Shown: piece by piece, positions 42,501 through 47,204 of the stretch | Layout: each line of letters starts with the position of its first letter | Numbering within the stretch: position 1 is the stretch's first letter | Origin: an uncultured Alphaproteobacteria bacterium | GTDB taxonomy: Bacteria > Pseudomonadota > Alphaproteobacteria > HIMB59 | DNA length: 54,953 nt | NCBI GenBank assembly: GCA_902529795.1 | Contig: CABZXY010000003.1 | Coordinates: 1-54,953, forward strand | Direction: 5' to 3' | Position numbers and translations under genes: made by a program | The notes under the pieces: model-generated | Told to the model about the DNA's origin: nothing | The model's input: the letters and a program-made list of their open reading frames with translations, nothing else | The model's database searches: none

Positions 42501-43007
42501 ATGAAAAAACTCTTTGCTCTCATAATACTAGTGTCCAGTATTTCTTGGACTAGCCAAGCTCAACAAGAGGGCTTTCAATCACCTAAGTTAATTGGGGAGG
42601 GTACGCTGAAAGTCTTGATGTGGGAGGTCTATGATTTGCGTTTGTTGACGGATGGAACGCCCTTCTCATGGAATAATAAGTTCATGCTAGAATTTGATTA
42701 CAGCCGCGAATTGAAAAAAGAAAGTGTCATTGATGCCTCTTTAAAAGAATTTAAACTTCAGCCCAATGTGACAGATAAAGAAATCGAAGCCTGGGAAGAG
42801 TATTTAGAGCAAGTCATTCAACCAGTGCAAAAGGGCACAAAAGCAAGCGTTATGTGGGTTCCAGAAGGTCAAATTGTTTTTGATTATGAAGGCTCTCCTC
42901 CCTCAACGATTGAAAATGAAGATTTTGCTCGAGCCTTTCTCAGTATATGGCTCGGTGAGAAAACTTCTCGGCCAAAATTAAGAAGTCAACTTTTGGGGAA
43001 TTCTTGA
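42501..43007 (+). CDS. Chalcone-isomerase-like secreted protein
   Basis: A 168-residue exported protein with a signal peptide (about 1-20, ending AQA-QQ) and the bacterial chalcone-isomerase-like domain. Recognised parts are IGEGTLKVLMWEVYDLRLLTDG, EFDYSRELKKESVIDASLKE and VFDYEGSPPSTIENEDFARAFLSIWLGEKTS. The bacterial members are not flavonoid enzymes; they may bind a lipid or act in the periplasm. It has its own start after the AT-rich gap, where a -10-like AATAAAAT is seen, and no close partner gene. Confidence 0.8.
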   Translation: MKKLFALIILVSSISWTSQAQQEGFQSPKLIGEGTLKVLMWEVYDLRLLTDGTPFSWNNKFMLEFDYSRELKKESVIDASLKEFKLQPNVTDKEIEAWEEYLEQVIQPVQKGTKASVMWVPEGQIVFDYEGSPPSTIENEDFARAFLSIWLGEKTSRPKLRSQLLGNS

Positions 43008-43054
43008 TCTTTGTTTGCTCATTCAAAAATATACTTATGTCGAATTGTAATTAA

Positions 43055-43390
43055 TTGAAACATTTAAAGCAGTTCTTATCAGATTTTAAAATATCAGAAA
43101 AAGAAGCTATCCAAATCTTATATAAAAAAAGCATTTCGAAGAAGGTAGGTAGGCCTAAAAAATATATTAAATATAAAATATTTTTCGAAATACAAAAGAT
43201 TCTATTAAACAAAAAGAAATTATCTGCAAAAAGTGCTGCAGAAATTCTTTTTAAAAGTAAACAGTTTATAAATATACAAAAGTTCTATGGTACTAATATC
43301 ACTAGCTCTAACAGAGTTTATAACCTATATGTTGAAGTTAAAGCTATGAAACCATCAGAATTACAGGGATTACCATCTCTTATAAAATAG
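43055..43390 (+). CDS. Basic DNA-binding-like hypothetical protein with AT-hook-like motif
   Basis: Not recognised. The 111-residue product is very Lys-rich. SISKKVGRPKKYIKYK contains a GRP core flanked by basic residues, as in AT-hooks that bind the minor groove of AT-rich DNA. Flanking helices (LKQFLSDFKISEKEAIQILYKK and KKLSAKSAAEILFKSKQF) look like two repeats of a SAAEIL/EAIQIL element, possibly a helix-turn-helix. The start is TTG at 43055 and is weakly supported. It heads a run of four unrecognised genes (43055-44702). Regulatory role is a guess. Confidence 0.5.
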   Translation: MKHLKQFLSDFKISEKEAIQILYKKSISKKVGRPKKYIKYKIFFEIQKILLNKKKLSAKSAAEILFKSKQFINIQKFYGTNITSSNRVYNLYVEVKAMKPSELQGLPSLIK

Positions 43391-43451
43391 TTACACGAAA
43401 ATAATTTACGGGTTTCGACTTTTTTCAAACTAACCATTAGTGTGCATTGTT

Positions 43452-44039
43452 ATGAAATGCAAAGCTTATTTAGGTCGAGTCATAGTTAAGGTCCGGACAG
43501 AAAAACAAATAGAAGCAAGTCATAAGAATGGCACTAAGGGATTAGGGCCAATTACGCACATCGGAAAGCTGCGCTCATCCATGAATGCATTCAAGCATGG
43601 TGGGTATGCTCATCAATTTGTGACATTGGGAGAGGACCCAAAAGAATTCGAAGTATTCTATCAAGCGATCTTGGATTTCATTCAACCGGATAATATTCTC
43701 GATGAAGATGTCGTCGAACAATTCATTTTTTGTGCTTGGAAGCAAAAGCGATTAGTGATTATTGAAACTGCATCTTTGAGTACGGAGATGCTAGATTATT
43801 ATCGTTCGGATCTTCGACCGGATTATCGTAAAACAAGAAAAATATCTAAAACCTATCTTACGAAAGGATCGAAAGCAGAACTGGGAAAAAACGAGGAACT
43901 GCAGGCAATTGCTTTTAAGTTAGATGTGAACAGTCACCAGAGTTTAGTAGTACTGGAGGAAATTCAAACCCGAACATTTTCAAAGTATCAAAAGCTTTTA
44001 GAAAAAATTTTGGAGATTAAAAAGAGGAGGCATTCATGA
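43452..44039 (+). CDS. Hypothetical protein with KHG-type N-terminal motif
   Basis: Not recognised. From the ATG at 43452 it has 195 residues (a GTG at 43440 would add four). The N-terminal segment GLGPITHIGKLRSSMNAFKHGGYAH matches a motif seen in many bacterial proteins of unknown role (G.T..GK..SS.NA.KHG), some next to mobile or phage-like genes. The rest is helical and charged, with EVFYQAILDFIQP, EDVVEQFIFCAWKQKRL and a Lys-rich end KKRRHS. It ends within the start of 44036-44452 (ATGA), and that start has a strong ribosome site AGAGGAGG. Confidence 0.6.
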   Translation: MKCKAYLGRVIVKVRTEKQIEASHKNGTKGLGPITHIGKLRSSMNAFKHGGYAHQFVTLGEDPKEFEVFYQAILDFIQPDNILDEDVVEQFIFCAWKQKRLVIIETASLSTEMLDYYRSDLRPDYRKTRKISKTYLTKGSKAELGKNEELQAIAFKLDVNSHQSLVVLEEIQTRTFSKYQKLLEKILEIKKRRHS

Positions 44040-44452
44040 GAAAATATCATTGGCTAAAAAGAAGACGTCCTGCATCATACTTAATTAGCGAATACAGCAG
44101 TCAATCAAAATTAGAGGATCGATATTTTCAAGATTCCGGCATTCGATTTGTGCCACCTCCAGCTGAGTTGATTGAACTCCCTGAACTCTTAGAGGAGAGG
44201 GTCGAGATTCGAGTGGACTGTCAGGTATCTGTGGGCGGTTTGTCTTGTAGTGTGGAGGTAGGAGAATTGGGATCAGAGATTTCGGGGAACGAACCCACCG
44301 AACTCTTGAAAAATATGAATAAGGCTTTGCATCCTCGATTTGTTCCGAATGCTCCAGTCTTGTATCACGACCTTAAGTACGGAGGATGGATTGATCCTTA
44401 TGAGTTTCGAGCCAAACCGAAAAAGAAGGAGAAGAAGTTTGAGTATTATTAG
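44036..44452 (+). CDS. Hypothetical protein, 138 residues
   Basis: Not recognised. Starts at the ATGA overlap with the preceding gene. The N terminus is very basic (MRKYHWLKRRRPASY), the middle acidic (IELPELLEERVEIR, EVGELGSEISGNEP) and the end Lys-rich (AKPKKKEKKFEYY). VDCQVSVGGLSCSVEVGEL contains two Cys in a likely beta segment. It belongs to the co-directional run 43055-44702. The coding is less AT-rich than the phosphonate region. No function suggested. Confidence 0.55.
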   Translation: MRKYHWLKRRRPASYLISEYSSQSKLEDRYFQDSGIRFVPPPAELIELPELLEERVEIRVDCQVSVGGLSCSVEVGELGSEISGNEPTELLKNMNKALHPRFVPNAPVLYHDLKYGGWIDPYEFRAKPKKKEKKFEYY

Positions 44453-44702
44453 AGAAGTTCAGGCTTTGTGGGGAGGTTTTACTCCCCAGGGCCTTCATCG
44501 CTTCTACTTATTATTAAGCAGCGATCCTTTTGCTTTGGTTGCGGGGCTTGTTGAAGCCAGCAAAAGTAATCTTCTGTGTGTTCAAAGAAGAAAAGCGAAA
44601 ACTCTCCGGCTTGGCACCTTTGAGGATATTCAATCTGATTTTGTTAATCATGGTCTGTATTCTCCTTATTTTCAGAGTTTTACTGGGAAGGTTGGGACCT
44701 AG
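44439..44702 (+). CDS. Hypothetical protein, 87 residues
   Basis: Not recognised. The most likely start is TTG at 44439, with AAGGAG about 8 bases upstream and a 14-base overlap with the previous gene; ATGs further upstream (44340, 44400) lie deep in that gene. The product includes IIREVQALWGGFTPQGLHRF and LLLSSDPFALVAGLVEASK, with a Cys and a short basic helix (CVQRRKAKTLRLG). It is the last of four unrecognised co-directional genes. A 162-base gap with a possible promoter follows before fadN. Confidence 0.45.
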   Translation: MSIIREVQALWGGFTPQGLHRFYLLLSSDPFALVAGLVEASKSNLLCVQRRKAKTLRLGTFEDIQSDFVNHGLYSPYFQSFTGKVGT

Positions 44703-44864: not shown

Positions 44865-47204
44865 ATGACCGCGTTTAAAAAAATTGTTGTAATTGGTGCT
44901 GGAACAATGGGCTCAGGTATTGCTGCTCATTTAGCTAACTCGAAGCGTGATGTCGTGTTATTAGATTTAAAGGGCAAAAGCTCTCCTAATCAAATCAGTG
45001 ATCGTGCGATTGATTTGATCAAGAAATCCGACCCTCCATTATTAGTCGAGAAGTCTCGCCTCGAGCATATTAAGCCTGGAAACCTCACCGATGACTTCGA
45101 TCAGATCAAAGATGCAGACTGGATTATAGAGGCTGTCGTGGAGCGCATTGATATTAAACACCAGCTCTACGCTCAAATCGATAAAGTTCGAAACTCCTCT
45201 TCTATCGTCTCCTCGAATACATCGACGATACCGTTATCCGTTTTAACCTCGGAGATGTCCGAGTCTATGAAATCAGATTTTTGTATTACTCACTTCTTCA
45301 ATCCGGTTCGCTTTATGCGATTACTCGAAATTGTCGAAACTCCAGAGGTGAATGCCGAGAAAATGAGTGCGCTTCGAGATTTTTGCAAGAATGAATTAGG
45401 TAAGGGGATTGTGAATTGTAATGACACCCCCGGATTTATTGGAAACCGTATTGGCGTCTACGCGATGCAAGTAGCTATGTACGAGGCTTTGGATCGAGGA
45501 TTGCCTGTTGAGATTGCTGACGCTCTGTTTGGTCGACCGTTGGGTATTCCTAAAACTGGTGTCTTTGGATTATATGATTTGATTGGTATTGATTTGATGA
45601 AGGATGTCTTGGCTTCGTTTAAAAAAGAATTACAGCCGGAGGATCCTTTTATGGAAGTGGTCAAGCCTCATCCTACTGTCGAGGCTTTACTAGCAAAGGG
45701 CTATACTGGTAACAAAGGTCCTGGTGGTTTTTATGAGACCAAAGTGGTGGACGGCGATGAGATCGTCAAAGCACTGAAGACTTCAGATATGAGTTACTAT
45801 GATTTTGATAAGGTGGACTTGCCGCTGGCACGTCGTGTGGAGAAGGAGGGCATCAAAGCTCTTCTCAATGATGACAGCGACTATGGTCAATATGCCTTTG
45901 CCGTTTTCGCTAAAATCATTAATTATAGCGCTTTTTGTGTCCCTGAGGTTTCCTCAAAGATTACCGATATTGATGATGCGCTTCGTATGGGCTTTAACTG
46001 GAATGAGGGCCCGTTTGAATTACTGACTGAGTACGGCATGACAAATTATATTCATCGATTACAAGACTTAGCGATCGAAGTCCCACCACTGTTAGCGACC
46101 ATGTCTCGATTAAAGCAAGAGCCCTACGACTCCACATCTTCGCGTGCCTATAATCACGAGGAGGGAATGAAGTTTATTAACCGAGGCGAGGGAGTTCGCC
46201 GATTAGGGGATCATAAAAAGTATGCCAATGCCTTATCTCGCAATTATGCCTCAACGATTTGGCAGTTCAATGATGATGCCCGCAAGCAGCGCTTGCTGGT
46301 TTGTGAGTTTCACACTAAGGCAAATGCCCTCAATGGCGATGCCATGAAAGTTTTAGAGGAAGCCGTGGAGCGTTTAGAAAATGACGACTACCAAGGTATG
46401 GTTGTATACAACGAAGCAATGAATTTTTCTGCTGGTGCCGATCTGAACACCATGATTGGTTTGGCAGATAAGGAAGATTGGAATGGTATTGATAAATACC
46501 TATCGCACTTCCAGAGTGTTTGCCGAAAAATGAAGTATGCCTCCAAGCCGACTGTGAGTGCGGTTGCAGGATTGGCGATTGGTGGTGGATTTGAAGTGGC
46601 CTGTCAGACTTCTCGCATGGTGGCTCACATGAATTCAACATTAGGATTAGTGGAAACAGGTGTGGGATTAGTTCCCGGTGGTGGAGGTTGTAAGGAATTG
46701 TTATGGCGCTGGACTTCTGATCCTGCTTTTGCGGGTAAATCTGATGAAGCAGCACTAAAGGTCTTTGATATTATCGGCTACGGGTTGATGGCTCACTCAC
46801 CACTGCAAGCGAAAAAGCATAAATTTTTTATTGAGGGTGATGTGATGGTTCTCAATCGTGATCACCTGCTCGTTGAGGCCTTCAAGCAAATTCATGAATT
46901 AAAAGAGGGATACACTCCTCCGGTCAAGCCCACCTTTCAGTTAAGTGGGAAGGAGACCAAGGAGAAGATGCATCAGGTTCTTTTAGATTTGGAGAAAAAA
47001 AGCATTATTTTTGGCTACGATGTGGACATTGGCCTGCATTTGGCAACAGTTTTAAGCGGTGGAGATACTGACCCTTCAAAGACATTAAGCGAAAATGATA
47101 TGTATAAATTAGAGCGACAGTCTTTAATAAATTTAATACAATCCTCAAAGACACGAGATCGTATCCATGCGATGTTGCTGTCGGGGAGGAGACTGAAGAA
47201 CTAA
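44865..47204 (+). CDS. fadN: FadN-type 3-hydroxyacyl-CoA dehydrogenase/enoyl-CoA hydratase
   Basis: Bifunctional beta-oxidation enzyme, 779 residues from the ATG at 44865 (the frame reads on to 44703, but MTAFKKIVVIGAGTMGSG is the true N terminus). Domain order is dehydrogenase first: NAD motif GAGTMGSGIAAHLA, FFNPVRFMRLLEIVETPE, then the C-terminal 3HCDH domain, and the crotonase domain last (KANALNGDAMKVLEEAV, NFSAGADLN, AIGGGFEVACQTSR, LVPGGGG). This order is the FadN type, not the FadB/FadJ one. A -10-like TATGAT lies 13 bases before the ATG, so the leader is very short. It overlaps the acyl-CoA synthetase gene by TAATG. Confidence 0.9.
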   Translation: MTAFKKIVVIGAGTMGSGIAAHLANSKRDVVLLDLKGKSSPNQISDRAIDLIKKSDPPLLVEKSRLEHIKPGNLTDDFDQIKDADWIIEAVVERIDIKHQLYAQIDKVRNSSSIVSSNTSTIPLSVLTSEMSESMKSDFCITHFFNPVRFMRLLEIVETPEVNAEKMSALRDFCKNELGKGIVNCNDTPGFIGNRIGVYAMQVAMYEALDRGLPVEIADALFGRPLGIPKTGVFGLYDLIGIDLMKDVLASFKKELQPEDPFMEVVKPHPTVEALLAKGYTGNKGPGGFYETKVVDGDEIVKALKTSDMSYYDFDKVDLPLARRVEKEGIKALLNDDSDYGQYAFAVFAKIINYSAFCVPEVSSKITDIDDALRMGFNWNEGPFELLTEYGMTNYIHRLQDLAIEVPPLLATMSRLKQEPYDSTSSRAYNHEEGMKFINRGEGVRRLGDHKKYANALSRNYASTIWQFNDDARKQRLLVCEFHTKANALNGDAMKVLEEAVERLENDDYQGMVVYNEAMNFSAGADLNTMIGLADKEDWNGIDKYLSHFQSVCRKMKYASKPTVSAVAGLAIGGGFEVACQTSRMVAHMNSTLGLVETGVGLVPGGGGCKELLWRWTSDPAFAGKSDEAALKVFDIIGYGLMAHSPLQAKKHKFFIEGDVMVLNRDHLLVEAFKQIHELKEGYTPPVKPTFQLSGKETKEKMHQVLLDLEKKSIIFGYDVDIGLHLATVLSGGDTDPSKTLSENDMYKLERQSLINLIQSSKTRDRIHAMLLSGRRLKN

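Follow-up and report, generated by a model that had tools for sequence, protein, structure and literature searches.

Gene content of the block upstream of fadB

The window (54,953 nucleotides) comprises all of contig C3, which belongs to a partial genome of 961 kb from a HIMB59-clade marine alphaproteobacterium; the labels SAR11, HIMB59, HIMB5 and IMCC9063 attached here to genomes are presumptive, being based in part on class and genome size. The block under study lies between its left neighbour, a chalcone isomerase-like gene (42501..43007, + strand; Pfam PF16036, E 1.2e-13), and a fadB-like core gene (44868..47204, + strand) with same-genus and same-order matches. Four ORFs running in the same direction had been described here, and all four were found on the + strand. 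The overlap noted between them was confirmed for the second and third, termed KHG and ORF3, where ATGA at 44036-44039 is shared by the KHG end and the ORF3 start, as it also is in G033. The GC content was 0.25 for the first ORF (TTG start), 0.38 for KHG, 0.43 for ORF3 and 0.42 for ORF4, with 0.374 for the whole window, in agreement with the statement that the last two are less AT-rich than the first. The proteins had been held to lack a recognisable function, and profile searches bore this out (Pfam and NCBIfam, none above cut-off; PHROG, none credible). No tRNA genes were found in the window, no recombinase-like ORF was present in the block as judged from the ORF list and Pfam, and an Rfam scan of the block gave no credible match.

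The first ORF (43055..43390, + strand), AT-rich and with a GRPKK core, reads as a decayed gene piece from another mobile element. A TAA at 43052-43054 immediately precedes its TTG start and an in-frame ATG is found five codons earlier at 43037; the stretch 43037..43054 (+ strand) probably represents the lost start, and no ribosome site was visible before the ORF. Its sole clear relative was a protein from genome G056 (34 % identity, E 4.7e-8), which is 118 aa in length, begins with ATG, and has several extra N-terminal residues compared with the TTG ORF. Because this relative precedes an HTH_17 protein and then a 678-aa prim-pol (both families assigned by Pfam), the source of the TTG ORF was likely a satellite or plasmid-like element. 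AT-hook membership (PF02178) scored 12.8 bits, below the Pfam cut-off of 17.4. The G056 locus (L223:5985-8634, in a genome of the sister family), with its AT-hook-like protein, HTH_17 protein and prim-pol in sequence, resembles a satellite or integrated plasmid.

The fourth ORF (44439..44702, + strand) is not a gene; it is the shadow of a 45-aa gene on the minus strand (44514..44651, MINKIRLN...NQSKRIAA, with an AAGGAG site) that is resident in the fadB upstream region and lies outside the pair. The fourth-ORF frame was interrupted by an in-frame stop in both of the nearest copies, G018 and G038; in comparisons among G000, G038 and G018 the minus-strand ORF showed 7, 10 and 9 synonymous codon differences and 0 non-synonymous ones. 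Of 100 genomes searched with the conserved 45-aa peptide, 8 gave a match, and in seven same-genus genomes the match lay immediately before fadB. In G023 the same gene (KIRLN...NQSKRI) precedes a photolyase-like gene, by reading of the translation. A truncated large terminase was considered for the fourth ORF (PHROG E 0.06, with a Walker-like stretch) and rejected, as relatives have the frame interrupted and the coding strand is the minus one. Frames not conserved in relatives had been named as the outcome that would make the ORFs non-coding, and this held for the fourth ORF only.

KHG (43452..44039, + strand; 195 aa from the ATG, with a longer GTG reading from 43440) and its partner gene ORF3 (44036..44452, + strand; 138 aa) are the first and second genes of a mobile pair. 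The KHG protein has an N-terminal GP.T..GK..SS.NA.HG domain, the remainder being mostly helical by prediction, and ORF3 ends in a C-terminal tail, W[IV]DP[YF]E..K..YY. Structure prediction of KHG, recommended at the outset, yielded this mostly helical model at low confidence (pLDDT 60.6, pTM 0.34), and the models were poor overall (pLDDT 37.8 for the other). Against solved structures there was no match for KHG, and ORF3 and the related partner proteins gave chance-level matches only.

KHG matches were obtained in 2/51 other same-genus genomes and 0/48 from the other family. The two were G033 (63 %) and G040 (58 %, frame broken). Isolates AG-337-M07 and AG-897-E09, whose records (loci L005 and L006) bear the title uncultured Alphaproteobacteria, supplied close matches to the protein. 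Since dN was low while the synonymous distance was large or saturated between the window and L005 (KHG, dN 0.28 and pS 0.79, saturated; ORF3, dN 0.27 and dS 1.5), KHG and ORF3 are, from their codon changes, genes long kept by purifying selection. When G033 was compared with G040 (L005 versus L006), the pair had low dS values, 0.19 in KHG and 0.05 in ORF3, whereas fadB had 0.89 and the small ORF immediately upstream 2.8; the pair has moved or recombined later than its surroundings. ORF3 remnants keeping only the 3' end were found before fadB in G034, G032 and G041. Two frames, KHG and ORF3, stand as genes, the TTG ORF is a remnant and the fourth ORF is spurious; a reading of the block as a four-gene system is not supported, since KHG and ORF3 alone form a conserved pair.

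The fadB site as a defence-rich hotspot

The fadB-like gene forms the right border of a variable region. It was matched in 48/52 and 16/23 of the genomes searched, the four genomes without a match being members of both search sets, and its upstream region was compared in 41 loci (window included, four of them short). A 70-aa gene, c0, was present in 23 of the 41 regions; in 6/41 no other gene lay closer to fadB, the distance being 284-330 bp, while elsewhere there was variable cargo, amounting to kilobases in other loci. Nine of ten cargo proteins scanned with padloc matched at E <= 1e-4, a 119-aa protein of G033 being the one without a match at that threshold; the matches were to DrmA and DrmB in G016, type I restriction and methylation in G010, DruA and an MzaB-like protein in G028, a GajB-like helicase in G034, and Mokosh-like or PDC models in G021 and G048. 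With Pfam, eight of ten cargo proteins matched at E <= 0.001 and two did not, the matches including type III restriction (G026) and Z1 (G017). G033, which has an intact pair, carries DrmA and DrmB homologues and, by reading of the translation, a C5 methyltransferase-like gene.

Content differs at this one core site, and an empty or near-empty form exists, c0 being nearest to fadB in the six regions mentioned. In G029, a same-genus genome assembled as a single contig of 1,410,127 bases, the chalcone isomerase-like gene ends 110 bp before fadB. The fadB upstream region is a flexible genomic island and a defence-rich insertion hotspot (DISARM, restriction, Druantin-like, Gabija-like and Mokosh-like systems). 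The block or its remnant ends at the fadB upstream region in G033, G040, G034, G032 and G041, and the pair or remnant lies at the right end of the hotspot in the six genomes in which either was found. G029 and G038 lack the pair between the chalcone isomerase-like gene (CHI) and fadB; their flanks differ as well, so that the exact ends cannot be fixed.

Metagenomic islands at matching positions across HIMB59 genomes have been described, one of them with a BREX-like system (PMC10734472); the island section of that paper describes neither the fadB site nor the KHG-partner pair, and it leaves two islands unassigned. Islands of SAR11 and Methylophilaceae are likewise treated in PMC7318151 and PMC10872708. 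Among the open-licence papers listed in searches for the pair or its motif, none was seen to describe it.

The cassette in the SAR11-like family

For a search of the phylum the KHG profile was widened with viral-contig relatives, and 15/398 genomes were matched, the own genome included. Among them was G458 (1.21 Mb), in which a small ORF, KHG and the partner lie at the end of a DrmA-DrmB (DISARM) island, before core genes. In the SAR11-like family of G458, KHG was found in 18/297 genomes at 22 places, one genome having as many as three; 20 of the 22 places were fetched as regions, plus G458, leaving out G609, and L290 and L292, which gave no KHG ORF, were excluded from the table of contexts. 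In 16 of the 19 contexts with a KHG ORF, another ORF (a fragment in one case) starts within the last 44 bp of KHG or at most 9 bp beyond it. The core genes to the right vary, being rmuC or rmuC-sbcB in seven contexts (Pfam confirmation in L274 only, the other six by reading of translations), an integrase about 1 kb off in four, and others in the rest. In most of these contexts the gene to the left is something other than a defence gene. At L276:4891-7461 a ResIII-Mrr type restriction gene lies directly left of the KHG cassette. Flanking repeats were essentially absent, apart from an AT-rich direct match of 15 bases in L274 and an inverted match of 12 bases in L279.

A profile of the partner, built from an alignment without L005, L006 and L285, was searched against the same 297 genomes and found 18 places in 16 genomes. 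Sixteen lie directly after a KHG match, one consists of halves at contig ends (G561), and one is a lone, weak match in G780 (E 9e-4) that is probably due to chance; the pairing with KHG is strict. ORF3 of HIMB59 matched the SAR11-like partners with a score of 39.2 (E 5.6e-6), compared with 22.2 for the best of 200 column shuffles, and it is the tail, W[IV][DN]P[FY]E..K..YY, that carries the match.

Upstream of KHG in eight SAR11-like cassettes there is a structured leader, R1. It contains a conserved CTTAA stretch, and four of the eight pairs of its stem have changes on both sides that preserve pairing. A search with the R1 model, under strict filters by which weak copies may be missed, found it in 9/227 genomes, every one at a KHG cassette (L274, L275, L276, L278, L279, L281, L283, L284 and L247); the ninth genome, G458, was outside the training set. 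Neither the window pair nor the two other HIMB59 copies (L005 and L006) had a match to R1 nearby, and R1 matched no Rfam family at gathering score.

The original prediction's mobile-element module is borne out by the patchy distribution, the chromosomal neighbours that vary by genome, and the discordant divergence. The suggestion that the module had been domesticated finds no support, as the pair is broken or cut down to its 3' end in several relatives.

The KHG motif and possible roles of the pair

Searching viral contigs with a DNA pattern for GP.T..GK.....NA..HG picked out 81 of them (L137-L217), from which 60 non-redundant loci were analysed. The viral motif proteins often precede terminase, portal and head genes, and the gene following them is often about 600 aa in length; when 87 downstream proteins were scanned, many matched head and packaging families, among them 12 with a match to phrog_2 (terminase large subunit) and 11 to phrog_30703 (portal). 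Four small-terminase PHROGs were matched by 12, 7, 3 and 1 of the 60 motif proteins (multiple matches per protein being possible), unnamed phrog_26872 by 22/60, and unnamed 6177 by 6/60. By motif and gene context these two unnamed families look like small terminases.

The cellular KHG set aligned with the phage set at 98.7-99.5 % probability over 49 N-terminal columns (about 45 residues), although the phage set had been chosen by its motif, so that the motif match alone is weak evidence and the weight lies in the gene context. Outside the motif the similarity of KHG to the phage set vanishes (probability 0.3 %). The window KHG had no PHROG match, and viral scans with single sequences and with three sequences gave no relatives. 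Against 50,697 phage records the SAR11-like KHG and partner had no match with the limit set at E 1; with a limit of E 10 the window KHG gave one weak match, and the L005 KHG gave five weak matches to phage records. KHG shares its N-terminal residues, GP.T..GK..SS.NA.HG, with phage proteins at the small-terminase position (PHROG 9231, 1889, 509 and the unnamed 26872 and 6177) but differs from them in the rest of the protein, unrelated by profile, and in having no adjoining large terminase. No terminase, portal or capsid genes were seen in the listed translations around the pair. A true small terminase was considered for KHG and rejected, given the contrary context (not directly before a large terminase or portal gene) and the unrelated C-terminal part. 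The description of the block as DNA-associated is plausible, as judged from the N-terminal motif held in common with the phage proteins.

The same motif occurs in widespread cellular hypothetical proteins, on plasmids of Picosynechococcus, Marivivens and Gemmobacter and in other proteobacteria. Many of these, like KHG, have a central E...VE...W..RRL...E region, while their C-terminal parts differ. Some of the genes lie near integrases, primases or restriction-like genes; no partner with a YY tail was seen by eye near them in the contexts read.

The explanation that we favour, by a small balance of probability, is that KHG and its partner are a mobile two-gene cassette at the core-gene edge of a defence-rich island that may meddle with phage packaging. 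Its parts differ in strength: we consider the anatomy of the pair, its mobility and its island-edge position to be very probable; a phage or satellite origin, the likeliest one, is about evenly balanced; and interference with the packaging of an infecting phage's DNA, though the likeliest role, is improbable on present grounds. On this explanation KHG would bind DNA via the N-terminal domain common to the small-terminase-position proteins, its predicted long helices may oligomerise, and the partner would act with it through the conserved aromatic tail; the pair could then meddle with such packaging, whether in defence or to help the island move.

Alternatively, the cargo of the island could include the pair as an independent system, either anti-phage defence or toxin-antitoxin, whose terminase-like motif is only an old DNA-binding domain. 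The two genes overlap, are patchy and sometimes broken, reach three KHG copies in one genome, lie beside DISARM in G033 and G458 and a ResIII/Mrr-type restriction gene in G585, and occupy a fadB site that is rich in defence genes. But neither protein matches a family in the libraries searched (Pfam, NCBIfam, PHROG), the position at core-gene edges is more regular than that of random cargo, and ordinary genes lie to the left of several copies; we regard this alternative as somewhat improbable. Less probable again is an accessory to a tyrosine recombinase, a directionality or end-binding factor that aids island entry and exit. Near KHG relatives, an integrase lies 16 bp away in G480, overlaps in G255, and follows on the right at some 1 kb in L275, L276, L278 and L285 (Pfam Phage_integrase was tested in L276, L285, L248 and L121), and annotated recombinases occur near KHG on two plasmids; against this, the translations read for HIMB59 and for the rmuC site showed no recombinase beside the pair, and there are no flanking repeats of note.

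The broken KHG of G040, the ORF3 3' ends left alone in G034, G032 and G041, and the TTG ORF without its start would all be expected of a dead prophage scrap decaying by deletion. We consider this very unlikely for the pair, since the codon changes between the window and L005 indicate strong constraint over a saturated synonymous distance, and since the pairing, tail and leader are conserved across SAR11-like genomes.

TerS has a role in phage-inducible chromosomal islands. The cassette resembles such islands and satellites in placing a small-terminase-like protein on a chromosomal island (PMC6092414), but it differs from them in that the pair itself comes with neither an integrase nor a replication module, and attachment repeats are lacking there too. 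The combination of an integrase and a replication module with a terminase-like gene, by which a satellite would be recognised, was not found in the block, the prim-pol and HTH_17 genes accompanying only the TTG-ORF relative in G056. Tycheposons are similar as island elements of streamlined marine bacteria; their tRNA border and tyrosine recombinase (PMC10872708) are both absent here, the window having no tRNA gene and the block no recombinase-like ORF.

Returning to the packaging cassette, a bolder view, highly improbable in our estimate, is that defence islands of SAR11 and HIMB59 spread free of an integrase through an edge cassette that diverts the phage packaging motor. KHG (small-terminase-like) and the partner (as helper) would mark the island edge, the leader would serve as a packaging or control site, and the phage motor would load adjoining island DNA, which would recombine into the flanking conserved core genes.

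The bacteria of the SAR11 and HIMB59 groups are abundant in the ocean, their genomes are small, and they have known flexible islands, which raises the question of how islands pass between cells. Recurring as it does at island edges, sometimes beside defence systems, the gene pair gives a concrete handle on island movement, and the SAR11-like form of the pair offers a specific leader to test. The analysis also suggests a naming for two unnamed PHROG families (26872 and 6177), and it shows that a motif common at the phage small-terminase position persists in cellular islands.
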